The position numbers and the translations under genes are program-made. Positions 14,675 to 35,400 of a stretch of 36,791 bases of DNA are shown one piece after another; the first letter of the stretch is position 1; each line of letters begins with the position of its first letter. Source of the stretch: Candidatus Omnitrophota bacterium (GTDB lineage Bacteria; Omnitrophota; Gorgyraeia; 1-14-0-20-64-10); NCBI GenBank assembly GCA_016201735.1, contig JACQCH010000039.1, positions 1 through 36,791 on the forward strand, read 5' to 3'. The notes under the pieces are model-generated. The model searched no databases. It worked only from the letters and a program-made list of their open reading frames with translations, and had not been told where the DNA came from.

Positions 14675-14688
14675 GACGGGCTAAACGA

Positions 14689-14705
14689 TATCATAAGGAA
14701 TGATA
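14689..14705 (+). promoter_or_regulatory. Possible operator upstream of the efflux locus
   Basis: TATCAT-AAGGA-ATGATA is a perfect 6-bp inverted repeat with a 5-base spacer, located about 20 bases upstream of the predicted -35 of the efflux locus. It could bind a dimeric regulator, conceivably the winged helix at the end of the first RND protein; this is speculative. Confidence 0.3.
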
Positions 14706-14725
14706 CGGATAGCCCCCTTCTTGTC

Positions 14726-14754
14726 TTGACTTATTTTGGAACTTCCAGTAAGCT
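14726..14754 (+). promoter_or_regulatory. Promoter of the efflux locus
   Basis: TTGACT (14726-14731) is 17 bases from TAAGCT (14749-14754). A start near 14761 excludes the TTG at 14736 as the tolC start codon and supports GTG 14787. Confidence 0.5.
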
Positions 14755-14786
14755 TTGTTTTAAGAGGTGAAGATGAGAGACAGTTG

Positions 14787-16607
14787 GTGAGACAGTTAAG
14801 GTTTAATCTCTCAGGATTACTCTACGGGTTGCTAGTCATATATACCGTATCAGCCCATCCCGCCCTATCTGCCCCTCAACCAATTGTATTGAAATCCGTT
14901 ATCGTCTTACCCACCCCTGAAGGGGCCGCCATTGAGATTCAAATGGAGCAGCCCTTTGCGTTTGTCACTTACACCTTAACCAACCCAGACCGCCTTATTG
15001 TGGATCTGATTGATCCCCAGGTGGAGAGCTCTCTACCTGAGAGCAGTTCCTTGGGGGACCAACTGGTTCGAGAGTGGCATCTTGTCCGAACAGCTCCAGA
15101 ACCGGGTAATCTTCCCACCATCGATTACCTAAGTTTCAATCTGACTCAACCCGCAGAACACCTGGTCGAGTCAAAGACCGATCGGTTGGTAATCCGGGTC
15201 CGTCCGAAAACTCCACCGAGCCCCCGCAACTTCTCGTTTGATTTGTTTGCCAACCCGCAGGACGCCGCGCCGCCTTCCTTGTCTGGGAATTCCAATCCTT
15301 GGAGTTTGGACTCTGTGCTGGAGTTTGGTTTAAACCGGCACAAACCGATTCAAATTGCCCGGGAAGAGATCGAACTTGCCCAAATGAAACTTCAAGAGGC
15401 CCGCCGGGCCCTTTACCCGGCGGCAAGCCTCAAGGCCAGCTGGACGACCGGAACCGCTTCCAAAGTCAATTTCCGGGAGGTGTCCCAGGGGATCCAGCTC
15501 GACCAGCCCCTCTATTACTCCGGCCGGCTCCGGGAGGCTTACGGCCAAGCGATTGTGAATATTCAGATCGCGGAAAAGCGACAGGGAAAAGTAAAATCCG
15601 ACTTCTCCTTGGAAATTACCCAGGCCTATTTCCAGTTGATCGGCGCAAGGGTCAGCCTCATGGTTCAGGAAGGGATACTGGGAGAGGTGCAGAAGTTGAA
15701 GGAACAGACGAATGCCCGTTATGAAAAGGGGCTGTTGACCCGTTTGGAACTTCTGAACGTGGAGTCACAGATCAACCAGGTTCAGTTCCAGCAGGCCACC
15801 GCCGAGAATGATCTGAAACTGGCGCGGCTCAAGTTCCTTCAACACCTGAATCTGGAGCCGGAGGCAAGGGAGGAGGTACCTGCCGAATTTCCTTCCGGGG
15901 CTCCTTCGGCCGGGATTGATCTTGAGGAGGCCTTGACGCTGGCAGTGAAATACCGGAGCGACATCCAGATAAGCCGGCTTCTGGTTGAATTCAACGAGCT
16001 GGAGGAGCGGATCGCGAAGGCCAAGGGAGCACTGAAGGTGGATCTCTCCACCTTCCTGGGGCGGTCTGGATCTGCTTTTGAAACCGAGCCGCTGGTGCCG
16101 GGATCGGATTATTTCATCGGAATTAAAGCGACCCAAACGTGGGGGCCGCATGGAGCATCGGCTTCCGTCACGAAAACCAAGACCGCTCCCCGACTGGGCC
16201 AAACGACCCGGACCGATTCCACCGTCCATTCCGTGGAGCTGGGCCTTTTCAGCCAGCTTCAAGGGTTGTCTGAGATCCAGCAGGCCCTCGTGGGTTTGGA
16301 GAAGGCGCGCAACGATCTGGCTGAGGTGAAAGCGACCGTCACGCAGGAAGTTCAAGAGGCCTACCTCAGCTACAATAAGGCTCACCTCCAACTGGAGTAC
16401 GCGAAACAGAAGATCGCTTTCAGGGAGGAGCAGGCCAAGGTTTTGAAAGCCCAGGCCTCTTTGAACGAAGTCCTGCCTTCCCAAGTTCTGGAAGCCCTGT
16501 TGAGGTTAACCGATGAACATGTGTCGGAAGCTCAGGCGTTGACCAATTATTATGTCGCCCTGGCGCGGCTGAACAAGGCGATCGGATTAACCGGCTATTA
16601 TAAGTGA
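14787..16607 (+). CDS. TolC-family outer-membrane efflux protein with N-terminal AMIN domain
   Basis: Read from GTG 14787 (606 residues), the protein begins with a signal peptide: MRQLRFN, hydrophobic LSGLLYGLLVIYTVSA, cleavage near ALSA. Residues about 30-145 form a beta-rich AMIN-like domain (VIVLPTPEGAAIEIQ, FVTYTLTNPDRLIVDLIDP, DRLVIRVRP), a module that targets proteins to peptidoglycan or septa. The remainder is a TolC/OEP barrel with two repeats: SLDSVLEFGLNRHKPIQIAREEIELAQ and DLEEALTLAVKYRSDIQISRLLVEFNELEERIAKAKG start each repeat, and long coiled-coil helices follow. AMIN-TolC fusions are unusual and could anchor the channel to the cell wall. It opens the tolC-adaptor-RND-RND locus. 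Confidence 0.88.
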   Translation: MRQLRFNLSGLLYGLLVIYTVSAHPALSAPQPIVLKSVIVLPTPEGAAIEIQMEQPFAFVTYTLTNPDRLIVDLIDPQVESSLPESSSLGDQLVREWHLVRTAPEPGNLPTIDYLSFNLTQPAEHLVESKTDRLVIRVRPKTPPSPRNFSFDLFANPQDAAPPSLSGNSNPWSLDSVLEFGLNRHKPIQIAREEIELAQMKLQEARRALYPAASLKASWTTGTASKVNFREVSQGIQLDQPLYYSGRLREAYGQAIVNIQIAEKRQGKVKSDFSLEITQAYFQLIGARVSLMVQEGILGEVQKLKEQTNARYEKGLLTRLELLNVESQINQVQFQQATAENDLKLARLKFLQHLNLEPEAREEVPAEFPSGAPSAGIDLEEALTLAVKYRSDIQISRLLVEFNELEERIAKAKGALKVDLSTFLGRSGSAFETEPLVPGSDYFIGIKATQTWGPHGASASVTKTKTAPRLGQTTRTDSTVHSVELGLFSQLQGLSEIQQALVGLEKARNDLAEVKATVTQEVQEAYLSYNKAHLQLEYAKQKIAFREEQAKVLKAQASLNEVLPSQVLEALLRLTDEHVSEAQALTNYYVALARLNKAIGLTGYYK

Positions 16608-16727: not shown

Positions 16728-17984
16728 ATGGCGAAGAAAGCGTCAGCGTTGAAACGGTTTCGAATTGTTCTGGTCTTTCTCTTCATCATCACGGGAGGTG
16801 TTGCCGTCGTGAACTGGTGGCTTCCCAGCCTGTTGAAGAAACCGCAAGTGACCCGGTTGCCGCCGGGGGCCAAGCCCAAGGGAGGGCCCGAGACCGGGAC
16901 GGAAGCGTTGCCGATCGCGGTGCGGACCTTCAAGGCCTCCCGGATCGAGTTCACCGATTTTCTGCCGACCCTAGGGACCGTGCGGGGCGATTCGGAGGTC
17001 GCGTTGAAGTTTGAGACCAACGGAGTCGTCAAGAGCATTCTTTTCCGGGAGGGGGACCTCGTCACCAAGGATCAGGTCCTGGCGACTCTGGATGACCAGG
17101 AGGCCAAGATGCGTTTAGAGTACGCCGAGTCCAAGGTCCAGGCGGCCGTGGCGCAAAAGGATCTGATGGCCAAACGGCTTTCCATCAACGAACAGCTTTA
17201 CCAGTTGGGGGCGATTATTCAACCCAAACTGGAGGAGAGTCAGCTGGAACTGAAGCAGGCCGAGGCGCAACTGGATACCGCCCAGAAGGAGGCGGATCTG
17301 GCCAAAATGGAACTGACTAAGATGGTCTTGAAGTCCCCGATGGAGGGGGTCATGGGAACCCGGGAAGTGGATGTAGGGGAATATTTCACGCCGCAGAGCC
17401 CCCCGATGGTCGTCGGGACCCTGTTGAAGGTCAGCTCCGTCTATGTGGAGTTGGGAATCATTGAGCGGGACATCGAGCGGATCCGGATGGGCCAGCGGGT
17501 GAAGGTGACGGTCGACTCCCTTCCCAATACCACCTTTGAGGGGACGATCGACAACTTGGCTCCCATGGTGGAGGGGAAGTCCCGGACGCTGACCGCCAAG
17601 GTCAAGGTGGAAAATACGGAAGGCAAACTCCTGCCGGGGATGTTCGCCCGGGCGGAGATCGCTGTTTTTGAGAAGCCCAACGCCCTGGTCGTTCCGACGG
17701 GCGCCCTGAAGGATACCGACGGTGATGGTAAATTTGAGTCGGTCTTCACCGTGGAAGGGGAGGTTGCGAAACTCAAACCCATCACCCTGGGGTATCTGAC
17801 CACCGACTACGCGGAGATTTCCAACGGGCTGGCGGAAGGGGAACAGGTGGTCACCGAAGCCCGAGGGGCTTTGAAGGAGGGTTCCAAGGTGACTCTCCTG
17901 GAGACAGAGGAGGCGGGGGTGCAGAGGGCCGAACCGAAACTGCCCAGCCCCAGCGCAAAACCGACCGAAGAGGAGGGACAATAA
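16728..17984 (+). CDS. RND efflux periplasmic adaptor (membrane fusion protein)
   Basis: The 418-residue HlyD/AcrA-type protein links inner-membrane RND pumps to the TolC channel. An N-terminal membrane anchor (RFRIVLVFLFIITGGVAVVNWW, about 11-31; the hydrophobic core is VLVFLFIITGGVAVV) is followed by the first half of the lipoyl domain (GVVKSILFREGDLVTKDQVLATLDDQEA, about 98-126), an alpha-helical hairpin (about 127-200), the second lipoyl half (LKSPMEGVMGTREVDVGEY), a beta-barrel (VYVELGIIERDIERIRMGQRV) and a membrane-proximal domain near LPGMFARAEIAV. The C-terminal 40 residues are acidic and Pro/Glu-rich. GGGGG lies just before ATG 16728. It is flanked by repeats on both sides. Confidence 0.95.
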   Translation: MAKKASALKRFRIVLVFLFIITGGVAVVNWWLPSLLKKPQVTRLPPGAKPKGGPETGTEALPIAVRTFKASRIEFTDFLPTLGTVRGDSEVALKFETNGVVKSILFREGDLVTKDQVLATLDDQEAKMRLEYAESKVQAAVAQKDLMAKRLSINEQLYQLGAIIQPKLEESQLELKQAEAQLDTAQKEADLAKMELTKMVLKSPMEGVMGTREVDVGEYFTPQSPPMVVGTLLKVSSVYVELGIIERDIERIRMGQRVKVTVDSLPNTTFEGTIDNLAPMVEGKSRTLTAKVKVENTEGKLLPGMFARAEIAVFEKPNALVVPTGALKDTDGDGKFESVFTVEGEVAKLKPITLGYLTTDYAEISNGLAEGEQVVTEARGALKEGSKVTLLETEEAGVQRAEPKLPSPSAKPTEEEGQ

Positions 17985-18061: not shown

Positions 18062-21000
18062 ATGAGTCTGCCCCGTTTTAGCGTCCACCGACCTGTCACC
18101 ACGATTATGATCTACGTGGCGGTCCTTCTCATGGGGGTGATCGCTTGGACCCGTCTTCCCCAGGAATTATATCCTCCCATTACCTATCCGCAGCTGACCG
18201 TGGTGACCCGCTACAAAGACGCCGCGCCCGAGGAGATCGAACTCCTCGTCACCAAGCCGATTGAGGAAGCGGTCGGGACCGTTTCCGGCTTGCGCCGGAT
18301 CAGTTCCGTTTCCAGAGAGGAAGTCTCTCTGGTGATCGCGGAATTCAACTGGAATTCCAACATGGATTTTGCCGCTTTGGGAGTCCGGGAGAAGATCGAC
18401 TTGATCAAGGAACGACTCCCCCGCGGCTCCGAGGATCCGGTGGTCGTCAAATTCAACCCCTTTGAACTTCCCGTCCTGGTCCTAAACCTTTCCGGAGGCC
18501 TTTCTTCCCATGAGCTTCTGGAGTTGGCTCGGAAACAAATCAAGAATGAGTTGGAGAAGGTGGATGGAGTCGCGGCGGTCAACATCTCCGGCGGATTAGA
18601 GCGGGAAATCCAGGTGGAGGTGGACCAGGGGCGCCTTCAGGCGGCGGGCTTGCCGATCTCTCAGGTAGTGGACAGCTTATCGAAGACGAACCTGAATTAT
18701 CCGGGCGGCACCATCAAGGAGGCTTTTTACGAGTATCTGATTCGAACGATGGGAGAGTTTCAGGTCGTTCCGGAAATCCCATCGATCGCCGTTGGAGTCG
18801 ACCAAGCGAAGGGGAAAGCCACCCAGCGGGAGTCCGGGGGGGACCGGCCGGGCCCCTTGAAGCGGGAGAAAGGCCTCGCCCCGTCGCTGAGGATGATTCT
18901 GCTGAAGGATGTGGCAACCGTCAAGGATACCTTTAAGGAGAAGACCTCGGTCTCCCGGTTTAACGGCGCGGAGAACATTTCCTTGAACATCCAGAAGCAG
19001 GCCGGGGCGAACACAGTCCAGGTGGCGAGCCGGATGAAACAGGCCATCGCCCGGGTCCAGTCCTCGCTGCCTCCCGGGGTGCAGTTGACCATCGCCTACG
19101 ATCAGTCCCTCTTTATCAAGAACGCTATTTCGGGGGTCCGCGACGCGGCAATCCAGGGAGGAGTCTTGGCTTTCATTGTGCTGTACCTTTTCCTGGGAAA
19201 CCCGTGGGCTTCCTTGAATGTGGCCGCCGCCATTCCCATCTCGGTTCTTGCGACGATCGGCCTGATGTACTTCAGCGGAACGACGATCAATATCATCTCC
19301 ATGGGCGGGCTTGCCTTGGGGGTGGGACTCCTCGTGGACGCGGGGATTGTCGTCGTGGAGAACATCGACCGATATCGGAGCAAGGGCAAACCTCCCCCGG
19401 AGGCAGCCGTTCAAGGGACGGAGGAAGTGGGGCCCGCCGTCATCGGCTCCATCCTGACCAACGTTGTGGTGTTTCTCCCTATGGTTTTTGTCTCCGGGAT
19501 TGTTGGGCAGCTGTTCAAGGACCTCGCCTATACCGTGACTTGGTCTAACCTCGTCAGCCTCGCGGTTTCCTTAACCCTGACTGCCTTATTTGCTTCCTGG
19601 ATTCGGCATGGAACGGGGCGTTCCCCCATTGAGCCGGCGATCAATGCCTTCCTGCGGTTTGATATGGTGCTGGTCCAGTGGTTCATCCGGCATCGTTTTC
19701 TGGGAATCGGGATTGTGCTCCTCTTATTTGGAGGATCCGTCGTCGGATTCGGGAAGTTGGATCGGGAGGTGCTCCCGAAGGCCGATCAGGGTCAGTTTAA
19801 TCTCCGAATCAATCTATCTCCCGGGACCCGTTTGGAGGTCACGGACCGGGTCGCTCAAAGGGTCGAAAAGGTTCTTCAGGCCGTTCCTGAGGTCCGTGAT
19901 GTGACGGTGACGATCGGCTCCTCGAAGGAGAAGAAGGCCGAGGAGATGGTGGAGACTCTGGGGTCCCATCAGGCGGCCGTTTTTGTCACCTTGAAGCCTC
20001 TTTATCGGGGGTGGAGAAGAATGTCGGGGCCTGGGTTTCGGACCCGGAGGAGCGCTGAGATTGTCAGGGAACTCAAAGACACATTGAGCAGGGAGCCGTT
20101 GGAGGGGGCCGAGATCGAGTACCTTCTCCAAGAATCGGCCATTAAATCCTCCGTCCTCGCCAGCGCCCCCGTCGTAGTGGAAGTCCGGGGGACCGAATTG
20201 CCCCAGATGGAGCAGTTGACCGGTCAGGTGCAGAAACTTTTGGGGGAGATACCGGGTCTCTACGGGGTCCAGACAAGCCTTGTCCCTCCTTCCCCGGAGA
20301 CCAAGGTGCACGTCAACAAGGATCGGGCCTCCGCTTACCACCTGTCGGTCAGCGACATTGCTTTGACGACTCAGACGGCCCTCAAGGGAACCGTGGCCAC
20401 GAAGTTCAAGGAGGCGGGGAAGGAGATCGACATCCGGGTGCGGTTGAGGAAACAGGATCGGGAGGATCTGAACAAAGTGCGCCGCCTGCTCATCCATTCT
20501 CCTTTGGAGATCGACGTCCCCCTGGCAGAGATCGCCTATTTGGCCGTCGGCAAAGGGCCCACGGAGATTAAGCGCCTGGACCAGCAGCGAACCATCCTGA
20601 TCTCCGCCCAGCTGTTTCAGCGCCCCTTAAACGAGGTGATCCAGGATGTGAATCAGAGCTTAAGGGTGTTGAGGATACCCTCCGGCTACACCGTGGCCTT
20701 GACCGGCGAGAACGAACAGATGAAGGAATCCTTCCAGTCCCTGATCTTTGCGCTGGGGCTGGCCGTGATCCTGATCTACATGGTCATGGCGGCAGAATTC
20801 GAGTCCCTCTGGGAGCCGTTTTTAATCATGGCGACGATCCCCATGTCTTTGATCGGGGTGACCTTGGGGTTGTGGGTGACCCACACCCCGGTAAGCGTGA
20901 TGGTGGCCATCGGCTTTATCCTGTTGGGAGGGATCGTCGTCAACAACGGGATTGTCTTAATCGAATATGTGAACCTCTTGAGGAAGGAAGGCAAGAGCGC

Positions 21001-21700
21001 GGAAGAAGCAGTCATCCAGGCCAGCCAGACCCGTTTGAGGCCGATCCTGATGACCGCCGCCGCCGAGGTACTGGGATTGCTTCCGTTGGCTCTCGGCCTT
21101 CAGGAAGGAGTGGAACTCCAGGGTCCCATGGCGATCACTCAAATGTGGGGGATGACCTTGTCCACTTTTCTCACCCTGATTTTTCTCCCCACCCTTTATG
21201 TGATGGGGGAAAACTTCTTCTCCCTTTTCTCTCGCGTGAAGGCTCCGGAGCTGCAGCCTGCGCTCCTGCTCGCGACTGTTCCTGCAGGGTTCCCGCCCCC
21301 GCCTCCCGTTCTCTTGGCAGCGCCAGCGCCGCCGGAGTTTCCGGAAATCCCCGAGGGTTTTGGAGGAGAAGAGGCGGTTCCGGAAGGACCTTCCGTCCTC
21401 TTCCCGTTGTCCGCGGAACCGATCATGAAGCCGGAGCCTTCGGAAGAACCGGTTAAGTTTGAAACGCCCGCCTCGGCCTTCCTTCCCCCCTTGAATCCGA
21501 GACAGAGGCAGCTGCTGGAGTACCTGAAGATCCACGGCCGGATCACCCGGAAAGATTTTGTTAAGTTGACCGGTGCCTCCGTCCCGACGGCGGCTCGTGA
21601 CCTCAAGGAATTGGCGGATCGGGGATTGATCGTTGGCTACGGTCCTTTCGCCAAGGGCAGGTACTATACCTTGGCGAAATCCGAAGGGGATGCGGCGTGA
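18062..21700 (+). CDS. RND efflux permease with C-terminal winged-helix DNA-binding domain
   Basis: At 1,212 residues this is an AcrB-type proton-driven exporter with a long tail. It has the N-terminal FSVHRPVTTIMIYVAVLLMGVIAW helix region, two large periplasmic loops and twelve expected helices. In helix 4 the proton relay reads LVDAGIVVVENI: D426 is kept but the second aspartate is replaced by alanine. Helix 10 reads GGIVVNNGIVLIEY. After the last helix (about 1055) comes a Pro/Glu-rich linker (about 1063-1140) and then about 65 residues starting NPRQRQLLEYLKIHGRITRK with KLTGASVPTAARDLKELADR and a wing ending GRYYTL. The tail matches winged helices found at the ends of Fic-like and DeoR-like proteins. 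RND C-termini face the cytoplasm, so it could touch DNA. The frame is unbroken across the junction. Confidence 0.9.
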   Translation: MSLPRFSVHRPVTTIMIYVAVLLMGVIAWTRLPQELYPPITYPQLTVVTRYKDAAPEEIELLVTKPIEEAVGTVSGLRRISSVSREEVSLVIAEFNWNSNMDFAALGVREKIDLIKERLPRGSEDPVVVKFNPFELPVLVLNLSGGLSSHELLELARKQIKNELEKVDGVAAVNISGGLEREIQVEVDQGRLQAAGLPISQVVDSLSKTNLNYPGGTIKEAFYEYLIRTMGEFQVVPEIPSIAVGVDQAKGKATQRESGGDRPGPLKREKGLAPSLRMILLKDVATVKDTFKEKTSVSRFNGAENISLNIQKQAGANTVQVASRMKQAIARVQSSLPPGVQLTIAYDQSLFIKNAISGVRDAAIQGGVLAFIVLYLFLGNPWASLNVAAAIPISVLATIGLMYFSGTTINIISMGGLALGVGLLVDAGIVVVENIDRYRSKGKPPPEAAVQGTEEVGPAVIGSILTNVVVFLPMVFVSGIVGQLFKDLAYTVTWSNLVSLAVSLTLTALFASWIRHGTGRSPIEPAINAFLRFDMVLVQWFIRHRFLGIGIVLLLFGGSVVGFGKLDREVLPKADQGQFNLRINLSPGTRLEVTDRVAQRVEKVLQAVPEVRDVTVTIGSSKEKKAEEMVETLGSHQAAVFVTLKPLYRGWRRMSGPGFRTRRSAEIVRELKDTLSREPLEGAEIEYLLQESAIKSSVLASAPVVVEVRGTELPQMEQLTGQVQKLLGEIPGLYGVQTSLVPPSPETKVHVNKDRASAYHLSVSDIALTTQTALKGTVATKFKEAGKEIDIRVRLRKQDREDLNKVRRLLIHSPLEIDVPLAEIAYLAVGKGPTEIKRLDQQRTILISAQLFQRPLNEVIQDVNQSLRVLRIPSGYTVALTGENEQMKESFQSLIFALGLAVILIYMVMAAEFESLWEPFLIMATIPMSLIGVTLGLWVTHTPVSVMVAIGFILLGGIVVNNGIVLIEYVNLLRKEGKSAEEAVIQASQTRLRPILMTAAAEVLGLLPLALGLQEGVELQGPMAITQMWGMTLSTFLTLIFLPTLYVMGENFFSLFSRVKAPELQPALLLATVPAGFPPPPPVLLAAPAPPEFPEIPEGFGGEEAVPEGPSVLFPLSAEPIMKPEPSEEPVKFETPASAFLPPLNPRQRQLLEYLKIHGRITRKDFVKLTGASVPTAARDLKELADRGLIVGYGPFAKGRYYTLAKSEGDAA

Positions 21701-21857
21701 CCCCACCCCTCCGGGGTCTCCTCGGCCTTCGGCCTCGTCGGTCAGGGTCCTCACCAGCTCGGACCCGTCGCCATACACGGCCTCGTTATTCCTCGGCCGG
21801 CGACCCTGTCATGGAGCAGGCCAGTTCCGGCCTCGGGCCTTGTGCGGAACTACGAGA

Positions 21858-22260
21858 GGCCCCCGGCTCGTGGGAGGGCTTCTCAGGCCCGCTCGTCGAC
21901 CCCAGCGTGGTCGACTTCGCTAATCGAAAATCCCTCGCTCGTCCCCGGAATTCCAGAGCGCGGGGGACACCGTGCCCGCTCGGAATTTTCATTGCCTTCG
22001 AAGCCCCTCCCCCGAGCCGGGGTCCTCGCATGAGACCTTCGGGGTGGCGGGGAGCGGTCCGATTCCCGTCAGCAGGGCCGACCCTTGAGGCCGAGCCCTG
22101 TCGAATGGAAACCCATGCTGAAATGAACGACCTTCCATGGAACGTCCTGTTGGGTTTGGCCACCTGCCGGTGCTCTGACATGGTGAATGTGAACAATCCA
22201 TCCGAATGAGGCCCGATGCCGGGAACGGACCGCTCCACGCCAGGACCCCGGGGTGGAGCC
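21858..22260 (-). ncRNA. Structured RNA element, copy 2
   Basis: The gap between the two RND genes (21701-22285) holds no credible gene. On the minus strand the core (22025-21858) is closed by a long stem, CCCCGGCTCG with CGAGCCGGGG plus GGGAGGG with CCCTCCC. Inside are the GTCCCC/GGGGAC hairpin and a GTCGACC/GGTCGAC hairpin (21895-21901/21909-21915) whose three changed pairs compensate relative to copy 1; the loop ACGCTGG is unchanged. CCGAGCGGGCA and GAGCGAGGG are kept. The 5' flank to about 22260 shares blocks with copy 1. The remaining 21701-21857 contains only small GC-rich hairpins such as CGGCCTTCGGCC. Confidence 0.68.
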
Positions 22261-22285
22261 GGCACTTGAACTCCGGAGGGGTGGG

Positions 22286-25200
22286 GTGAACCTGCCGAGC
22301 TTCGGGGTAAGACGCCCCGTCACCATCGCGATGCTTTTCCTCTGCTTCATCCTGATCGGGATCATCGGCCTGACGCGACTTCCCATCGAGCTTTATCCCA
22401 ACTTCAGTTTCGGAGATATTTCGGTGATCGTGGATATCCGGGGCGGGATGCCTCCCGTGGAGGTGGAATCCAGAGTTACCAAGATCATTGAGGAAGCGAT
22501 CGGCGATACCACCCACATGAAGGATCTCATCTCCATCTCCGAAGAGGGCCGGGCCCGAGTGGTTTTGTCGTTCGAACCGGGCACCGACATGAATTTTGCC
22601 GCTCTGGAAGTCCGTGAAAAATTCTCGAAGGTTCGGTCCAAGCTGCCGCCGGAGATCGAGAAACCGATCATCGCGAAGTTTGAGCAGAACGACCAGCCGA
22701 TCGTCATCACGGCGGTGACCGCCCTCGATTCCACTCCGGAAATCTTGCGCCGCCTCGTGGATGAACAGATCAAGGATCAGATCATGCGGGTGGAGGGGGT
22801 GGCCAACGTGGAGATTGGAGGCGGCCGGGAGCGGAAGATCCTGATCGAGGTGGATCAGGATAAACTCCAGGCCTACCGCCTGCCCATCGACCGGATCACG
22901 CGGTTCTTGAGTGTGAGCAACTTAAATCTTTTGACCGGGGAGGTGGAGCGGCGGCGCGACAAATACCTGATCCGGGCCATGGGGGAATTCCACTCCCTCT
23001 CGGAGATTGAAAACCTGGGGATTGCCACGACTCCTTCGAACTCGATCATCCGCCTCAAGGACTTGGCGACGGTCAAGGATTCTTTTTTGGAGGCGACCAG
23101 CTTCGCCCGCGTCAACTCCCTCCCGGTCGTCTCCCTCTACATCCAGAAAGAGACGACGGCCAACACCGTCAAGGTGGCTGGGGAGGTCTTGAAGACTTTC
23201 GATCAGATCCAGAAAAACCCCAAGATGCCTCACAATCTGAAATTCATCGTCACCTACAATCAGGCGGTGCAGATCCAGAAGGCGATCGAGGAGGTCGGGT
23301 CTGCCTTGATCAGCGGGGCGGTTCTGACGATCCTGGTTCTGGGGGCCTTTCTGGGCACGAGCCGGTTCGTCCGGCTGCTCTGCATCCCCTTTATGTTCGG
23401 GGTCACGGCTCTGGCGCTGGCAACCTACCGGTACTCGATCGTTCCGATCCATGTCACCACAGGGATCATGGATGGGCTGCTCCTTTTGCTCCTTGCCGGC
23501 GCGGCCATCTGGAAACATCTTCGCCTGACGCTGATCGTCGCGATCGCCATCCCCTTGGCGACGGTCATTACCTTGGGGCTGATGTTTTTTCAGAAGCTCA
23601 CCTTGAACATCATGACTTTAGGGGGTCTGGCGATGGGGATCGGGATGCTGGTGGACAACTCCATCGTCGTCCTGGACAACGTGATCAAACGTCTGTCACA
23701 GGGGCAATCCAAAGAGGCAAGCGCGGTGGAGGGGGCTTCCGAGATGCTCCTGGCGATCGTGGCGGCCACCCTGACCCACATCGTGGTGCTCCTGCCGATT
23801 GTCTTCGTCAACAAGGAGATCCGGATCCTGTACACCGGATTCGCGCTGACGATCAGCTATTCGCTGGCGGCATCCCTCTTTGTGGCCCTGACCGCGGTGC
23901 CTCTGCTGGCGGTGCGGCTGCCCTTTCCGGTGGCCTCCGAAACGTCATCCTCGCGAAAGCGAGGATCGGATTCCCGCTTTCGCGGGAATGACAAAGGGGT
24001 TTTGAAAACGGCGTTCCGAAAAATCATCATCGGCTCGTTAAGATGGCGTTGGGCGATCGGCGTGGGAGCTGTTTTCTTGGTTCTCGCCAGCTTCCAGATT
24101 TTCAAAACCATCCCGAAGGAATTCCTCGGAACAACCGAGGCGGAGGATTTCACGATCTTCGTGGAGCTGCCCACCGGGGCGAAACTGGACATTTCCGATC
24201 AGGCCGTCTCCAAGGTTGAAAAGCTCCTGAAGGATGTTCCGGAGGTCAAATCGGTTTCCTCCCGGGTGGAGCCCTGGTCTTCGAAGGTGTATGTGAAGTT
24301 GGTTCCTTTGTCGGAGCGGAGCCGCTCCACCAAGGACCTGATCGAGTCGCTCCGCCCGCAGGTGCAGGAGGTCGAGAAAGGGATCCGGGAGGCCTTCATC
24401 TATTTTGAAGAACCGGGGCAAACGGAGACCAACGAGGTGATTCTGGAGATTTACGGCTGGGATTACGAGGTTTTAAACCAGCTGGCCGTGGAGATGCTCA
24501 AGAGGATGCAGCAGGTCCAGGGATTGACCGACCTGAAGATCCGCTGGCGCCGGGGCCGGCCGGAATGGGAGATCCGGGTGGACAAGGTCAAGGCGGCCCG
24601 CTTTGGGCTGATGGTGGAAGATGTGGCCAACGCAATCCATGCCCAGATGCGGGGCCTGCGGGCCACCCTTTATCACTCAGCGTCGAAAGAAGTGGAGGTG
24701 ATCACCCGTTTGGAGGAGGCGGACCGGGCGACCTTGGAAAAGCTGCGCCGGATGACCTTCATCCTGCCGAACCGGGAGGTGGTTTTTTTGGAGCAGATTG
24801 CCCGCCTGGAGCCGGGGATCGGCCCCTCCAAGATCTGGCGAAAGAACCATGAACGGATGATCCAGGTTTCCGCCAACCGGGGACGCTACGCTTTTGGGGA
24901 GGCGGCCCAGAAGGTGTTCGAGGCGATTAAGGAAATGCCGTTTCCGAAGGATTATTACTGGCGCTTCGGGGAGAATTATTGGAAATTGATGCAGAATCAA
25001 AAGGAGCTTTCCTTTTCCTTGAGTTTGTCCCTGGTTCTGCTGTTTCTGGTTTTGGCCTCTCTGTTTGAATCTTACACCCAGCCCTTCATCATCATGATCA
25101 CCGTCCCGTTGGCGACCATTGGGTCCGTGGTGATTTTAAAGTTGATGAAACAGGCGTTGAACGTGGGAGCCATGATGGGGGCGATCCTGCTGGGTGGGAT

Positions 25201-25549
25201 TGTGGTGAACAACACGATCATCCTGGTGGATGAAATCAACCGCTTGAGGGGCAGGGGATACCGGCTGAAGCGGGCGTTGGTGGAGGCCAGTTTCAGCCGG
25301 ATCCGGCCGATTGCCATGACCGCCTCCACCACGATCTTAGGCCTTCTTCCCATGGCTTTCAGCCGAACGGAGCAGTCCGCACTTTGGGCGCCGATGGCCC
25401 TCATTGTCCTGGGTGGATTGTCCAGTTCTACTTTTCTGACCCCAATTGTGGCTCCTGGGTTGTACCTGATGCTCGAAGACATCAAACGCCTTTTCGCTCA
25501 CCTGAAACCGGCCCGGAGGCGGTTACAGGTGCCTGTAACCGTATCGTAA
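22286..25549 (+). CDS. Second RND efflux permease, with inserted segments
   Basis: The 1,087-residue exporter starts at GTG 22286, with GGAGGGG at 22275-22281; the earlier in-frame GTG 22253 lies in RNA element copy 2. It opens LPSFGVRRPVTIAMLFLCFIL. Helix 4 reads GMLVDNSIVVLDNV (D457) and helix 10 GGIVVNNTIILVDEIN, patterns of SwrC/YerP-like RNDs. Two oddities stand out. Between helices 2 and 3 (about residues 357-410) an extra 55 residues contain two further hydrophobic spans (LLCIPFMFGVTALALA and GLLLLLLAGAAIW). In the cytoplasmic loop between helices 6 and 7 (about 553-570) a palindromic repeat is translated in frame as SSRKRGSDSRFRGND. It probably shares the adaptor at 16728. Confidence 0.93.
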   Translation: MNLPSFGVRRPVTIAMLFLCFILIGIIGLTRLPIELYPNFSFGDISVIVDIRGGMPPVEVESRVTKIIEEAIGDTTHMKDLISISEEGRARVVLSFEPGTDMNFAALEVREKFSKVRSKLPPEIEKPIIAKFEQNDQPIVITAVTALDSTPEILRRLVDEQIKDQIMRVEGVANVEIGGGRERKILIEVDQDKLQAYRLPIDRITRFLSVSNLNLLTGEVERRRDKYLIRAMGEFHSLSEIENLGIATTPSNSIIRLKDLATVKDSFLEATSFARVNSLPVVSLYIQKETTANTVKVAGEVLKTFDQIQKNPKMPHNLKFIVTYNQAVQIQKAIEEVGSALISGAVLTILVLGAFLGTSRFVRLLCIPFMFGVTALALATYRYSIVPIHVTTGIMDGLLLLLLAGAAIWKHLRLTLIVAIAIPLATVITLGLMFFQKLTLNIMTLGGLAMGIGMLVDNSIVVLDNVIKRLSQGQSKEASAVEGASEMLLAIVAATLTHIVVLLPIVFVNKEIRILYTGFALTISYSLAASLFVALTAVPLLAVRLPFPVASETSSSRKRGSDSRFRGNDKGVLKTAFRKIIIGSLRWRWAIGVGAVFLVLASFQIFKTIPKEFLGTTEAEDFTIFVELPTGAKLDISDQAVSKVEKLLKDVPEVKSVSSRVEPWSSKVYVKLVPLSERSRSTKDLIESLRPQVQEVEKGIREAFIYFEEPGQTETNEVILEIYGWDYEVLNQLAVEMLKRMQQVQGLTDLKIRWRRGRPEWEIRVDKVKAARFGLMVEDVANAIHAQMRGLRATLYHSASKEVEVITRLEEADRATLEKLRRMTFILPNREVVFLEQIARLEPGIGPSKIWRKNHERMIQVSANRGRYAFGEAAQKVFEAIKEMPFPKDYYWRFGENYWKLMQNQKELSFSLSLSLVLLFLVLASLFESYTQPFIIMITVPLATIGSVVILKLMKQALNVGAMMGAILLGGIVVNNTIILVDEINRLRGRGYRLKRALVEASFSRIRPIAMTASTTILGLLPMAFSRTEQSALWAPMALIVLGGLSSSTFLTPIVAPGLYLMLEDIKRLFAHLKPARRRLQVPVTVS
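23944..23992 (+). repeat. Double palindromic repeat translated inside the second RND gene
   Basis: It has the same two hairpins as 18001-18059, here 49 bases, with the GTCATCCTC start and GGGAATGAC end. It is in frame and adds about 17 residues in the loop between predicted helices 6 and 7, where insertion is least likely to disturb the pump. Confidence 0.9.
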
Positions 25550-25585
25550 CCGTATCAACTTCGCTATAATCTATTCACCTATAAT

Positions 25586-26299: not shown

Positions 26300-26350
26300 A
26301 TGAGTCGACAGTCCAATGGAACCCAGACGAAATATCCGCGAGTTTTTTAA
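26300..26350 (+). CDS. Putative 16-codon leader peptide ORF after the riboswitch
   Basis: ATG 26300 has GGAGA six bases upstream and reads MSRQSNGTQTKYPRVF before TAA at 26348-26350. Its frame differs from that of the giant gene, which starts 60 bases later. It may be a leader ORF translated under riboswitch control, or the remains of the original start of the giant gene, displaced when a palindromic repeat (26360-26408) inserted. Confidence 0.4.
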   Translation: MSRQSNGTQTKYPRVF

Positions 26351-26359
26351 AGAGGCCCC

Positions 26360-26408
26360 GTCATTCCCGCGAAAGCGGGAATCAGATCCTCGCTTTCGCG
26401 AGGATGAC
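26360..26408 (+). repeat. Double palindromic repeat between riboswitch and giant gene
   Basis: It is the reverse complement of the repeat at 23944-23992: GTCATTCCCGCGAAAGCGGG first, then the GAGGATGAC-ending hairpin. Its right end supplies AGGA (26401-26404), a plausible ribosome binding sequence for TTG 26412. Confidence 0.85.
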
Positions 26409-26411
26409 GCT

Positions 26412-29400
26412 TTGCGGGGGGTGATCATCCCGTTGGATTCCCCGAAGCGGCGGCCGATCCTTCGTTTTATCTCCGCAGTTACCTGCTTTACCTTTATTCT
26501 CACGCAAGCTCCCTTCATTCGAACCGCTTCCGCGCTTCCTACGCATCCGACCGGTGCGGAAAATATAGCCAACCTCAACAGCATCGCCAATGCTTCTAAC
26601 TTGGTTAAATTTGAGCAATCGATTCGCAACCTCCAAGAGAGCATCGAACAGAAACGAAAATACAACGTAGCGATGGCGTCGCTGATCGCTGGGGCTCGAA
26701 TTATTCGGGGAATCGAGTCTCACGTGAACGAGATTGCCCAGGGAGCGCAAACGATCTATCAGGTGAGCTCCGGTGGGACCAATGTCATCGACACCTTGGC
26801 CGGCGTGGCCGGCGGTTACAACATCGCTGCGCCCGGGGATATTTTGTCGATCACCACGAGCGCCAATGGAATCGGCGGCGTGGGAATCGTCAAGCCCGGT
26901 GCCATTGAGTTTAATTATTCCATCCAGAGACAGAAAGACGAGCGGTTTCCTGTCTTAAAGATCTACTTCAAGAACGGGCAGGTTTCCCGAATCACGAATG
27001 AACGGATCAATTCCCCAGGAGGACCTTTCTACCGCGACACGCTGTTCCATCAGTACCACAACGGCCTGCCGATTTCTTACCAGGCCTTTGAGTACCGGGT
27101 GATCGACGACTTGCCTCATGATGCATTTCCCGGCGGGGTCCTGCCTCTGCGGGACATTACCTGGACAGGGAAGTGGAGCGAGGATTCGAAGTTCTATGCC
27201 TCGAAAACAACCCAGGCGAAGAAGAAACTTCTGGAGGAGGCGATCGATACGATCACCTACACAGCTTACACGCCGGGCGACATTCGGCGGATCATGGACA
27301 AGATCGCCGAGGTGACGCAGAACGGGGATTCCCCCGCCTGGGTCAAGGCCATGCAGCAGGCCCTGGCTCCCGGGGGCGGGATCCGGTTGGGAGTGGTGGA
27401 CGAGCGGCGAGACCTGGTTGAGAAGTTCTACCGGGCGCACGATGGACAGGGCCGGCCGACTCATTGGCATGAGGTCCGGACCGATTACTCAGGGATGACG
27501 GAACCGGCCGGAGTCACCGATGCGCAGGTTACCGTCGATTACATCGACGACAGCGAGAAAAAGATACGCACCTACAATGAGGTGGGCACTCACAAGGCGA
27601 TGTTCGTCAGCCCGTCCGGTTACCAGCGGTACGCCGACTGGTCGACGCAAATCCTGGATCATCCCGAGGCCTTCCCGCAGGAACAGGTGGACGCGGCCAG
27701 GCACGTCAGAGAGATGATGAATCCGGGCGGGCAGTTGACTCCGAATCAGCGCTATGAAAGCACCTTCACCCTGGTGCGGACGTACGGCTCAAACGATTAC
27801 AACGACAAAGAAGATCCGATTCATTGGAAGGAACGGCGTACCTCCTCGACCGGCCCGGACACAGAGATAGAGACTACCATGACTTACGATTCCGAGCAGC
27901 GGATGGTCAGGCAGGTGGATGAGATCCGGGAAAAAGGTTCTTATTCGGCGGCAGACATTGATTCGTACTGGGATCTGGTCCGCAGGATCAAGGCCAAAGG
28001 GGTTGACGCCACGGCGGCGGATGTCCAGCGGGCCGGGGACCTGCGGCTTAAATTGGACAGCGGGGAGATCTCCATTGAAACCCCGTTTGTCCGGAATCAG
28101 AAGGTGACCCGGGATGGCTTCGTCTACAACGATTCCCGGCTGTCGGTGGAGTGGATCCAGACGGCCCAAGTCGGCGGCACGGAGACTCGGGAGCGTTTCC
28201 TGACTTATTACAACGACGGGCTCGGCCGCAACCGGGAGCTGTTGGTGTACACCGATGAGAAGACCCGCCTGGAGGACGATGTTCGCCAGAAGCTCCGGGA
28301 GCAGGCGTTGGCGATCTTAAGAAATCCGGACTCGACCGAGGCGGGGCTCAAGGCGGCTCAAGAGACGTTGGCTTTTCTCAGATCGGAGCAAGTGCCGACC
28401 GTTTTTTCCCGCAGTTCCATCCGATACCGTGGAAAGATCATCTACAACGCATCGAATCTTCCGATCGAATACACGGAGGTGACAACTTCCAACGCCGATC
28501 GGATCGCCACCCAGAGCCACGTTCAGGCGATCGTCTACAACCCGATCGGATTGGAGCTAAGCTCCTTCTCTCAGATTCAGCGGACCGGGACGGGCACCCG
28601 CAACGCCTACTTCTTGTCCGACGGGACGACGGAGCTGACCGCCCAGACGGCCCCGATGCTCCGGAGTTTGCTGGCGGCCTATTATTCGACCGGCAAGCAG
28701 GCGGCAATCCAGGATTTGATCGACCTGGGAGAGATCCAGGCCTTTGACGCCCAGGGCAACTCGATCACCGAGCAGCAGATCGAAGGTATCCTCCGGGCCA
28801 ACCCGATCGTCATCAATCAAGCGACCACCGGGAAACTGGTTGACCAGGGGATTCTGGTGAAGCAGCCGGACGGCTCCTATACCGATGGGGACGGCAATGT
28901 GCGGAGTCAGGCCGAGATTGACGCCCTGATTGCCCAATACACCGTTACCCGGCCCAGGACGATCGACGAAGCGATCCAGGACGGTTATTTGAAATTGTTG
29001 GACCGAAGCGGGAATCCTCTGGATGAATCCAGTGTCGCGGTTCTGCTCCGCCGGCATTCGCTGGAACCGCATGTGCCCACACTGGATGAGCTGGTAACGC
29101 GGGGCGCCCTGAAGAAGGTCGAGGGTGTTTCCTACACATTGGATCAGGCCTCCAATGTGTTCCGCCACGGCTTCGCCTACGATCACCTGGCCCGGGTGAT
29201 GGAATTCACCGAAGAGACCACCAATCCCAGCGATGGGATAAAGACCACAACCCATCTTTACGGAATTACCCACGATTCTCAAGGCAGGCAGACTTCATCG
29301 GTGCAGGAGGTCCGCAGACAGGGGACGGGTCTGCGGACAACCCTTTTCTCTGAAGGGGAGGAGCTGTCGGCCCTGGACTTGCAGGAGCAGCTTCCCAAGG

Positions 29401-32400
29401 CGTGGCTCGCGGATTGGAATGGATTTGAGCTCCGGGAAGTCGAGGCCCCGATCGATCTGACCGTGATCACCTACCAGCAGGAGACCAACTACTACGGATT
29501 CAGCACCCTCGCCGAGGGGGGCCGGTCGATCATCAGCACCCGTGGAGGTCCCAGGGACGGGGTGACGGCAACGGAGGAGACCTCCTTGACCCGGTTCAAC
29601 GACAAGGGCCAGCTGCTCAGCCAGTTCGTTAAGACACAGCAGTCAGGGGTGGATACGATCTCCCTTCCTTATATAGGGGATGAGCGGCTGACGATCGAGA
29701 GGATGCAGGCGCTCCAGCAATCTTTCCCGGATTTGACCGTGAAGGACATGTTTGATGTCGGCTTGCTTCGGATGGTGAAACAGCCCAGCATTATGAACAA
29801 CGGGACCCAGACCTACCGGTCCGGGATGGAGTATGAGAAAGAAACAGGATTCCTTAAAAAGCAGATGGAGCTGACCTCCAGCGACCAGAGCCCCGGCAGC
29901 ACCACGGTGGATTTCCTGGACGCCAGCTATTCCTCCACCGGACAGCTCCTTTTCTCCCGGACGAAGAACCGGTCCACCCTGTTTGACCTGGAAGGGTCTA
30001 GCGATCTGATGACCTTCAACGCACTTGATCCCAAGGGACAGCTTCGTTACGCGGAGGCGGTCGGCACCCAGTCCAATTCTGACCTTTTTGGAAGCGGTTC
30101 GGACCGCCTGGTGCGCCGGTACTCCGTTGGGGTGAACGGCCAGTCTAAACTGGTCGCAGATATTTCTATGGGACTCGCCCGGGAGCTGGATGGTTCTGCG
30201 TTCCAAATTGGAGAGCGAACCACGTATCAGTACGATGCCTTCGGCAACGTGGTCCACGCCGATGGATCCAGTACGCGGATAGGGACCGACGTCTGGGGAA
30301 ATTTCTCGAAGCGGAGTCAGCACACCCTGTACGGGGTGATCAACGGGGATCCGAAAGCGGCGCTGACTTTCTCGACGGATCCATCGGAGCTGGGCAAGCC
30401 GGAGCCGCTGGGGACCGGTGCGACGTTCAGCCTGCTGAAGGATCAGGCCAAGCAGCAGGGGATCACCGGTTCCGCGCCGGCGCCGTTCCTGGCGAACCCG
30501 CAGGATTACGACAAGGTGACCGTCGCTGATTTAAGCCTCTTCCAGGTCTACAAATTTCTGCAGAAGTCGGATGGGAAATTGACCGGAGCCCTGATCGACA
30601 TCCCCGGCGTGCAGATCCCGGTCCTGAACGTCAACGACATCAACGTAGATGCCGCCGGGGTCATCACGATCGATTCCGGATCCGGATACAATCACGCCAA
30701 GTATGTCGTCCAGACCCTCTCGGACGGAACCGTCCAGACCACCCGGTACAGCTTCAAGTCGGAGAATTTCACCAGCAAGGAAGTGGAAGCGCAGGTGATG
30801 ATCACCGCTTCCTCCAATGGAGTCACGACGACCACCGACCAGTCGATCAGCTTCAAGGACAACAACGGCGACGGGGATACCGATGATCCGGAGGATCGGG
30901 TGGATGCGACAACGCGCGTGGTCAATGCCATCGGGCTAATCAGCGTTACCTCTCAATACACCGATGGGAATGTCAACGGCACCGTGGCGATCAGCGGAAT
31001 CGGCTATCAGGCTTCCATCTTTAATGTGACGAACGTGACCTTGAACACCGATCAGATCACGGTGGAGGGAACCGGCGTCACCTTCACCATCAACCAAGGA
31101 GCAAGCGGCACCACGATCACCAAGAAGGTCGCCGACAACCTGGATCAGACGCAGAACCAGTCGGTGACGATCCAGCGGCTGACACGGCAGGACGGGGATC
31201 TGACGGTTTCCACGCTGTTGACGGTGGTTCGGAATTCCCAGGATCAGGTGACGAAGGCGACCTGGGTCGATGAGGTGAGCCAGACTGCCTGGGCCACGCT
31301 GACCGCCCGATGGGACGATCATGGGACCGCTTCCGATTTGGCCGATGACACCGCGGCGGTGATCATCAACGGGGAGCAGGGGTACACGACGCATTATTTC
31401 GGAAAGGTGACCGATATCGGGTTTGCTGCCGGCGATCCGGAGCAAGTCGCCTTTGTGGATCATGCGTCGGATGGGACGGATCATACCTACCGGATCCAGC
31501 GGGGGAATTCGGCGCTGACGGTTCAGGACACGACGGCCAGCACTCAGACGGAGACCAGCCGGATCGGCGGGACGATCACCACCCTTTACCGCAACGCCGA
31601 TGGAACGGTCGCACAGACGATCCGGGTGGAGGAAGGCACTTATCTGACCAAGATCAGGACGTATCAGGGAGATTACCAGGCCGACGCGCCGGATCAGAAC
31701 GTGGTGATCGGCGAGGATGTCATCGGCCAGGGATTCACCCGGACCGATCTGCACATCGATTCGGATGGGAATCTCGTTTGGGCCGATGCAAACGGCGACG
31801 TGGTTCGCAGCAACACGAACCCGGGATCGGACTACCATTTGCTGACGACTCAAAGAACAATCTTCTATCTGACCGACTCCAACATTCCGAGTCAGATCGC
31901 CCGGATCACCTACGACGCCAACGACTCTGCCGTTGCGTCTCCCACCGGGGATATCCGGGACGTTTACATGGAGCAGTACAACGATTCCGGGGCGGCGGTG
32001 AAGGTGATGCAGGTGGCCCGGCAGGGAGGCGAGATCCAATGGGCCCGCCAGCAAAAATACGATCAGAGCGGGAGCCGGCAGATCTTCAATTTGGTGATGA
32101 AGACCCATGAGGATGGGTCCCAATACCGGGATCTCGTTGGGATTTTCACCGATGCGAGCGGAGCCCGGACCCGGATCTTCGCGATTCCCGACAACACGGT
32201 GATGGACGGCTCCTTCCCGAAACGGGCCATCCTCGAGATCGCCAACAGCGAACAGGTGGCGCCGCTGAGGATTTACGTGGAATCGGGAGACCCAGCGACT
32301 CTGGCCGCCGATCTTTCCACGCTGACCGAGGACCAATGGGATGGTCTGCTGGGCGGACCGATCGATCTGACGGTGAATGGGCAGACCTACACAGTTCGAT

Positions 32401-35400
32401 TGCCCCAGGTGGGTGATGCGGATGACCATTTGGCAACCCTCTCGGTTCCGGCGCCGACGCCGGTTCGAGGAACGCTGCAGATCGTTTCTTACACCGGATC
32501 CACCTCGCCGCCGGACATCAGCATGCTGGATCTGATGCGGCTGGCCTGGGCCAAGCGGATCTCGGTTCCAGGCGACGGGGATGGAGACGGGGTCGTTGCT
32601 GCCGGTGAAACCACCACCGATCCGAAGAAGGTCCTGGAGTACATCCGGCAGGGCGGCAAGGAGATCACGATTCCGTGGGACACCAACGGGGACGGCCAGA
32701 TCGGATCGGATGAGACCGTGACGGTTCAGCAGGCCGGGTTGGATCTCTCGGTTCTGTTGACGGATCAGCGGGATGCTCTGCTCAACGGGCAGGCCATCTC
32801 GCTGTCTCAGCGCCAAATTATTTCCTTCGTCAATTACACCGGGTCCGGCGCTCCTCCCACATTAGATCAGATCCAGCTCTCTGAGGCCGATCGGAACAAC
32901 CTGATGCTGGGGCAGGATGTCACGGTCGCGGTCAACGGAGACTCGGCGACGATCCGGCGCTTCAAGCCGGACACGGCAAGCAAGTTCGTCACCATTTCCA
33001 AATGGGTCAACGCGGACGGAACGGCCGGGACAGGCACGCCGCCTTCCTTGGACGGGATCTCGTTGGACGATCAGCAGTGGGCCGACCTGCAGAAATTCGG
33101 CGGGGAGATCACGGTGACCCTGGCCGACGGGACCCAGGTGACGCTGAAGTCTCAAGGCGGGCTGGCGGAGGATCAGAACAGCCGGCTCGGCGTCGGCGAC
33201 ACCACCTTGGTCCGGGGCTTGGTCGCCACCAACTTCGATTCCGACGGAAAAGCGACGAGCGGGGTCGTTCAGGAGCAGACTCTCTCCAACATTCAAATGC
33301 AGGCGACTTATTCCCAGGGGATCATCAATTACTTCGGCAATCCGGCCGACTTGAAGCTGGAATTTATTCAGAATGCGGATGGGACGACGACCCGCCGGTA
33401 TCTTTATGCTGCGGACGACCCAGCCCGGCAGATGACGATCGACATTAACCCAGACCAGTTCCTGGAGGCCTACCGACCCCAGATGGAGGGAACGCTTCGA
33501 ATCACCCATACCTTGGACTACGGCTGGATGCCGGCCGTCACCGGCTGGGATGAGATGAATGGGGATCAGGTTGTCCAGCATCACGACGGAGCGACGGAAC
33601 TGCCGCCGGCCCTCAATACCGTTCGGCTCACCGAACAACAGAGGCTGGATCTGGAGGCGGGCAGCTCGGTGGTCCTGACCACCCCGGACAAGAAATATCA
33701 AATCACCATCCAGAAATCCGCGGTGGATCCGGCTTCGTTGACCGATCAGCAGGTCAAGGACTTGAAGGCCGGTCGGTTCCTCTGGGTTGGGAGCGATCTT
33801 TTGGGGCTTCTGACGGTTTCGTCAGGAATTTATTACCTGACCAGCAAGACCACGGAGATTTATCAGGTGGAAGAGAATGCCGCCGGCATTCTCACCGTGA
33901 GAAAGAAAGACGCGCAGGGAGCTTGGACCGAGGATGTCACCGGCTCCTTCGATCAGAAGGAGATGAAGTCATTCCGGGATGCGGTCAGCCAGATCACCAA
34001 GAAACCGACGGAGGGCAGTTCGGACAAATCTCAAGCCAGTTCCGCCCCGGTGGGTTTGAGCCAGCCGATCGCTGTTGATCCGATGCAGGATGAATCCGAC
34101 ACGGACTTGGACGGCAATCGGACGGAGACGGCCCGGATGGCCCGCGTGATCTCCGTCGCGGTGACGGGCGGGACCGATTTCCCCCAGATCTCCGGGTTCG
34201 ACCTATCCGACTCCATGAGCTTAGTGGGCCTGCTGGATTCTTGGGGAAAAGGAGATTTTAAGGATTACAACGGATTCGGCTACCGGTTTGAGCATGCTCC
34301 TGATTTGCCGCCGATTGTCGGGGTCATCGGAGCCAAGGTGCTGATGGGATCGGTGCGGCTGCCTAAGCCGCCGGCCGTCGTCGGCGCCTCGGCGGGTTCG
34401 AATGATTGGAGCGGCACCAATGTGACTTACACGGAGATCACCGGGTCTACTCCTCCCAACGATACCGGTGGAAGCAATCCCTTAGCAGAACAGGTGTACG
34501 CCAAGATCGACCAGACCCTGCGGGATCTGATGTCGACCTTGGGCGGGGCGGCGGCCGGGGCGTTGGGAATTTTAAGCGACGTCCGGATCGTCGATCTGAT
34601 CAACCGCCTCCGGAATGCTTTCGGCGGATTCATCATCAACTGCGGGGCGATTGCACTCTCCGCCTTCCTGCAGGCCCGCGGCTACTTGGCCGATGCGGCG
34701 GATCAGGTGACGGCGGCCGCCCGGTTGATGGTCCGGCAGCTGGTCGATTTTGGAGAAAAGATGATCGTTCAGAGTCTGGTCGGCCCCGCCATCTCCGCCT
34801 ACACCATTCGGATGGTCGCCGATGAGATGGCCGGGGAATCGATGCAGACGATCCAGGTGGGGCCCAATTCAGAGGGGCTGTATCTTCGGATCTTGAGCGC
34901 TTCCGCGATGGCGGCGATCATCCATTTCGCCGACCACTGGGTGACCTTCCTTGGTTTGGTGCAGGGAACGGACGGGACAACTTTAGTGCGATACATCGAT
35001 TCGGATAATCAGGAACATGACCTTGACCTTGTTGATTTTCTCTCTCGCTGGAGGGTCGGCGGTGGTTTTGCCTTGGTGACGAAGACCAATCTCTCATCGG
35101 GAAGCGGAAGCACGCCGGGGCCGCCCGGGCTTCCTCCCACTCCGAGCGGACCCTCAACCGGACAAACGCCCCTTTCCGTCCGTCCGATCGAAGGAACGAA
35201 AGAGCATCTCATCTTCGCTCCTCCCATCGATCCTCATCAGCTCCTGACCGGTGCCCAGCCGATTCCTCTTCTAACCGCCAAGAACATCGACCGGATCGAC
35301 CTCGACGGCACGGCTTCCCATACCGACAACTACCTCCAGTACGACTACAACGAGGAAGGGAAGCTGGTTGGAGGCGTGGGATCCTCGACGACCTACGGGG

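Follow-up and report, generated by a model that had tools for sequence, protein, structure and literature searches.

An RND permease fused to a winged helix in Omnitrophota: a candidate membrane-tethered transcription factor

The pump operon and its gene order

The DNA analyzed in this work (the window) is a stretch of 36,791 nucleotides from a MAG of Candidatus Omnitrophota, an uncultured bacterial phylum, and its genes described below are all encoded on the + strand. The pump operon in the window begins with an outer-membrane factor (OMF) of the TolC/OEP family (14736..16607; PF02321, 145 bits), the start codon of which is uncertain and lies at about 14763. This is followed by a periplasmic adaptor (MFP; 16728..17984) that is matched by HlyD_D23 and by TIGR01730 (236.5 bits, cut-off 94.9), by RND1-wHTH (18062..21700), in which an RND permease carries a C-terminal winged helix within a single open frame of 1212 aa, and by RND2 (22253..25549; PF00873, 712 bits), a second RND permease without the winged helix-turn-helix (wHTH). 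The ORF between the two permease genes (21697-22209) is without homologue in the relatives. A sigma70-like promoter for the operon, TTGACT-17-TAAGCT (14726..14754, + strand), can be read from the sequence and its -35 and -10 elements are largely retained in two relatives (G002 and G005). Downstream of RND2 lies a gene for a giant, probably exported, protein of 3492+ aa (26316..36791) that runs off the window; no Pfam domain over cut-off was found in this ORF, and in family f1 homologous giant genes follow RND2. Omnitrophota commonly have giant ORFs, for which a role in adhesion or predation has been proposed; the lifestyle of the phylum is thought to be one of attaching to other cells or preying on them (PMC10066038).

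The order OMF-MFP-RND1wHTH-RND2 is conserved among relatives, with the alternative order RND1wHTH-RND2-MFP found in f4, f12, f47 and f53. It is invariably the first of the two adjacent RND genes that has the fusion, and RND2 never bears a wHTH. In one relative (G005) an antisense ORF of 886 aa upstream of RND1 hinted that the OMF and MFP genes were missing, but both were found there by tblastn. The tree separates RND1 from RND2 as two deep clades, and the wHTH is spread across the RND1 clade and missing in G011 and G016, both of which are nested inside. As judged from this tree, whose basal supports are weak, the wHTH is ancestral in RND1 and has been lost at least twice. The TM4 proton-relay residue D407 (AcrB numbering) is invariant in all aligned RND1 and RND2 sequences, while D408 is mostly replaced by A, N or S and K940 by N or D. 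It is from the conserved D407 that we infer the pump to be probably active. A degenerate pump retained merely as an anchor was rejected given the strong constraint on D407 and the core.

Domain structure of RND1-wHTH

Both halves of the permease are covered by ACR_tran (PF00873), which extends up to residue 1048 and scores 785 bits against a gathering score of 28. Residues 1056-1143 (21227..21490) form a cytoplasmic linker of 88 aa that is rich in Pro (26%) and Glu (13%), contains no TM segment and diverges at a near-neutral rate. The wHTH domain occupies residues 1144-1205 (21491..21676), within which residues 1147-1190 match HTH_DeoR (PF08220) at 23.8 bits, or at 27.1 bits when the C-terminal piece of RND1 is taken alone (cut-off 21 in both cases). 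The sugar-phosphate sensor domain DeoRC is absent among the Pfam matches of the protein, the remainder of which is an RND permease.

The fold of the domain was modeled with AF2 from the C-terminal 83 residues of RND1-wHTH together with six homologues. The model has an H-H-H-strand-strand topology with a two-strand wing and a pLDDT of about 90 across the domain, and its top structural matches by Foldseek and VIA-align are winged helices of the MarR/ArsR type (Z about 10-11), with Fic and Z-alpha domains also among the matches. By this model the C-terminal domain of RND1 is a winged helix. The recognition helix, VPTAARDLKELAD, spans residues 1174-1186 (21581..21619; helix 45-57 of the model), and its T, A, A, R and D residues are 89-100% conserved in 44 distinct domains. 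The original prediction had read a recognition helix and a wing in this region from the sequence alone, and both readings were correct.

Distribution of the fusion and selection on the domain

The proposal that an RND permease is fused to a wHTH is borne out by the open 1212-aa frame, by Pfam and AF2, and by the same fusion in homologues. It would have failed had a frameshift joined two genes, or had homologues always kept the wHTH as a separate ORF. Neither is the case: other RND-wHTH fusions were looked for and are present in dozens of Omnitrophota genomes, and the domain is fused in nearly all homologues, the one split case being membrane-anchored as well. A frameshift or assembly artefact has practically no chance of explaining the locus because dozens of independent MAGs share the identical fusion architecture and selection can be followed at the codon level through the domain. 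A phylum-wide search (at least 60 bits, AlbA-type proteins left out) found a high-scoring wHTH domain in 44 of 285 Omnitrophota genomes, with 38 of these in frames of at least 989 aa, five in frames truncated by the contig and one split. Lower scores (40-60 bits) were obtained for AlbA/RecG-like proteins, which are about 440-520 aa long. The relatives obtained by a contig scan, which detects close relatives only, are all Omnitrophota, and the counts given here for the fusion and for the motif described below cover this phylum only. No report of an RND-wHTH fusion was found in the literature, in which coverage of subscription papers was thin.

In close pairs the pN/pS was 0.09-0.36 for the wHTH, 0.11-0.31 for the pump core and 0.44-1.0 for the linker. 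As estimated from these codon comparisons, the wHTH is kept by purifying selection much as the pump core is, and the linker is almost unconstrained. Linkers in homologues are rich in Pro, Glu and Lys, range in length from 44 to 522 aa and yielded no credible TM segments; some f4 genomes have a long coiled coil as their linker. A short linker motif, EIPEGFGGEEAVPE (window 21338-21382), is shared by family f1 and one f2 genome (G010) while the remaining linker varies, and it is possible that this is a docking or processing site.

The split case is found in G236, where RND1 ends normally without a wHTH and a separate protein of 410 aa in the same operon (L136:637-1869, - strand; between RND2 and OMF) carries the same wHTH behind one TM segment and a coiled coil. 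The conserved element is thus a membrane-held wHTH within the pump operon. This split version lacks a motif site. The G236 operon also has an insertion of two small ORFs, of 129 and 118 aa, that resemble four-helix-bundle proteins.

A motif shared by genomes with the fusion

Alignment of the promoters of the first operon gene in f19, f7, f23 and f1 gave the pattern TAACCGTATCAT. The underlying motif, TAACCGTATCA, often occurs in 11-bp tandem repeats and is located at the pump promoter, before genes for giant exported proteins and TpsA, and in yidC-jag-parAB. The original prediction had pointed to an inverted repeat upstream of the locus (14689-14705) and this repeat is real: it consists of two opposed copies of the motif, AAACGATATCAT on the left (14683..14694, + strand, 11.3 bits with a matrix built from non-pump sites) and TATCCGTATCAT on the right (14700..14711, - strand, 16.3 bits), just upstream of the TTGACT-17-TAAGCT promoter. 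By itself an inverted repeat with 6-bp arms is at chance level; the motif halves are common to several families. A third copy (14842..14853, + strand, 12.7 bits) lies within the 5' end of the OMF gene. Further downstream, a tandem motif TAACCGTATCG-TAACCGTATCA-A (25536..25558, + strand) overlaps the stop codon of RND2, is found at the same site in G003, G007, G019 and G314, and is directly followed by a TATAAT box (25565-25570) upstream of the giant gene at 26316, which is a putative second target of the wHTH for which there are no binding data.

The tandem pattern was found in 17 of 118 relatives and all 17 carry RND1-wHTH. Across the 285 genomes of the phylum, tandem sites with at most two mismatches are present in 19 of the 44 wHTH genomes versus one of the 241 others (Fisher 1e-16), and at no more than one mismatch all 18 of the matching genomes carry the wHTH. 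Relaxing the limit to three mismatches gives 25 genomes, 20 with and five without the wHTH; the five have one site each, at 2-3 mismatches, a number near the seven genomes matched by a reversed control pattern. These p-values overstate independence because the genomes are related, but a contrast within the single family f4 stands (2/5 with the wHTH versus 0/45 without, at most two mismatches). Tandem sites number about 1-5 per genome. No tandem site could be detected in roughly half of the genomes with a wHTH, and the pump promoters of G039 and G178 are without the motif despite a canonical recognition helix.

As an independent test, a matrix that drew on non-pump sites alone (those of giant genes, yidC-parAB and Tps) was applied to the OMF promoters. 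Of the 16 pump promoters with a canonical wHTH, 14 scored 13-21 bits, which at most 4% of other 500-bp windows at the same locus reach. Column-shuffled matrices matched a mean of 0.95 of the 16 promoters with a maximum of 13 in 500 shuffles, none reaching 14. None of six controls was matched, these being the pumps of the wHTH-less G011, G016 and G038 and three f18 pumps (L086, L093 and L094). The f18 proteins have LP[IV]AD.EL(.ELV) in place of SxPTAARDL in the recognition helix and a GEGxxKVY wing, and the shared motif is gone, which may be a natural switch of specificity. The motif is gone from pumps that persist after loss or alteration of their wHTH, and this is the strongest indication that the wHTH reads TAACCGTATCA, a role that is inferred in the absence of binding data.

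Putative targets beyond the pump

In the genome from which the window derives, tandem copies lie between TpsB and TpsA at two two-partner secretion loci (C25:5988-6008, L161, and C54:43371-43391, L171). Sites preceding giant genes recur in f1, f4, f7, f11, f19 and f66, those of yidC-jag-parAB in f19 and f4, and yidC-mnmG sites in f11. The identities of YidC, Jag, ParA, TpsA and TpsB were confirmed with Pfam; the names mnmG and parB as well as the grouping of giant genes across families rest on N-terminal sequences read by eye. In the yidC-jag-parA-parB cluster (L148:1501-1522, and L151, L177, L179 and L182) the tandem motif sometimes fills the 25-bp gap between jag and parA. This cluster is oriC-proximal in many bacteria, and the motif there may serve as an operator or as a point of membrane anchoring close to the origin.

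Placement relative to the promoter differs between families. Sites lie between -35 and -10 in f7 and f66, which suggests repression, and abut or lie upstream of -35 in f19, f11, f24 and f1; those abutting -35 in f19 possibly indicate activation, although the direction is not settled. Some sites overlap gene ends (the RND2 stop codon, jag-parA) and are not textbook promoter sites.

Proposed mechanism and alternatives

The best explanation, which we consider fairly probable although there are no binding or expression data, is that RND1-wHTH works as a permease subunit in an MdtBC-like two-permease RND pump and at the same time serves as a membrane-tethered autoregulator or transcription factor. 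The pump is probably a membrane-held regulator because its wHTH is under selection and a specific motif shared among wHTH genomes is found at the pump promoter and at giant genes. Action of the pump on its own locus had been proposed originally, and it gains independent support from the motif that co-occurs with the wHTH at the inverted repeat of the pump promoter, again without binding data. The C-terminus of RND1 would exit TM12 on the cytoplasmic side and the long flexible linker would allow the wHTH to reach the chromosome, where it would bind TAACCGTATCA operators, typically of at least two head-to-tail 11-bp repeats, at the pump promoter and in front of giant exported-protein genes as well as, in some families, at TpsA exoproteins and yidC-jag-parAB. 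A spacing of 11 bp is one helical turn, and tandem sites would be well matched by several wHTH heads per pump, for example two if the trimer has the composition RND1(2)-RND2(1) known from MdtB2C. Pump conformation, assembly or abundance would set the occupancy of the operators, and occupancy would couple the expression of the pump and of surface proteins to the state of the envelope. The stoichiometry, the direction of regulation and the signal, including the originally proposed sensing of substrate or proton flux, are conjectured. In a stronger form of this proposal the active pump is itself the transcription factor of a secretion/surface regulon, its transport state being read by trimer-borne DNA-binding domains on tandem operators such that efflux, giant exported proteins and YidC/ParAB are coupled without a separate regulator or kinase. 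This form remains tentative and somewhat doubtful; there is no evidence that transport changes DNA binding.

It is also conceivable that another, soluble regulator of the ROK or OmpR/PhoB type reads TAACCGTATCA and that the RND1 wHTH binds elsewhere or makes protein contacts. Direct repeats of 11 bp are typical of OmpR/PhoB-type regulators and the sites fit these as well, and a ROK regulator gene is located directly upstream of the OMF in f19, f7 and f66 (G314), with ROK genes upstream of the pump operon at L067:11938-13179 (- strand), L069:5656-6894 and L082:4747-5970. The distribution of the ROK regulator, however, does not match that of the motif and it was rejected as the reader: full-length relatives (about 400 aa, E<1e-54) exist in the motif-less G011, G016, G038, G001 and G033, whereas the motif-bearing G049 and G192 have only distant ROK matches. 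The presence of the motif instead tracks the wHTH, even where the pump persists without it. A different factor with the same distribution as the wHTH cannot be excluded; we consider a separate reader unlikely.

Two other readings keep the wHTH as the DNA-binding element and change what the membrane is for. The PEST-like linker could be cleaved to free the wHTH as a soluble regulator, with the pump serving as a device for delivery and timing. A Pro/Glu-rich and fast-evolving linker is compatible with proteolytic release, but no cleavage motif is conserved across families, and the split wHTH of G236 retains its own TM segment and coiled coil; therefore it is tethering, not release, that has been preserved, and we think release improbable. 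Alternatively, the wHTH could hold chromosomal sites at the membrane, by transertion or origin tethering, instead of regulating initiation, as sites are present in the yidC-jag-parAB cluster and before exported-protein genes and some overlap gene ends. With about 1-5 tandem sites per genome only, and with operator-like placement between -35 and -10 in f7 and f66 and abutting -35 in f19, we give little credence to anchoring as the function. A tethered regulator remains the preferred explanation. The system is open to testing: its domain and candidate operator are defined, some lineages have lost the domain naturally, and the putative targets include giant exported proteins.

Comparison with known systems

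The pump itself resembles MdtABC and MuxABC, which are RND pumps with two permeases, MdtB2C being a heterotrimer (PMC7015380). The likeness lies in two adjacent homologous RND permeases together with an MFP, and the best solved relative of both RND1 and RND2 is MdtB. RND1 falls below the NCBIfam cut-offs for MdtB (382.4 of 1584) and MdtC (391.9 of 1774), as does RND2 for both families, and the Omnitrophota system differs in the linker and wHTH of RND1 and in an operon with its own OMF.

The closest sequence relatives of the RND1 wHTH within the phylum are the C-terminal wHTHs of AlbA/RecG-like and Fic proteins, and the Fic wHTH 8cil is among its structural matches. These proteins have no membrane part and their recognition helix reads SVRQANRDL versus SxPTAARDL in RND1. 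Membrane-integrated one-component regulators of the ToxR type (ToxR, CadC) act on DNA while tethered (PMC5936718), and RND1-wHTH is similar to these in combining a membrane part and a cytoplasmic wHTH in one protein. ToxR and CadC are bitopic, with an N-terminal wHTH, a single TM segment and a C-terminal periplasmic sensor, whereas the wHTH of RND1 is C-terminal, on a long linker, and attached to a polytopic permease; its architecture is not that of a ToxR-like receptor. Transporters are known to influence regulators, and in the LysP-CadC system a transporter informs a membrane-held wHTH regulator. LysP and CadC are two proteins and RND1-wHTH is one polypeptide; a drug-type efflux pump that carries a DNA-binding domain itself would complete this loop within a single chain.
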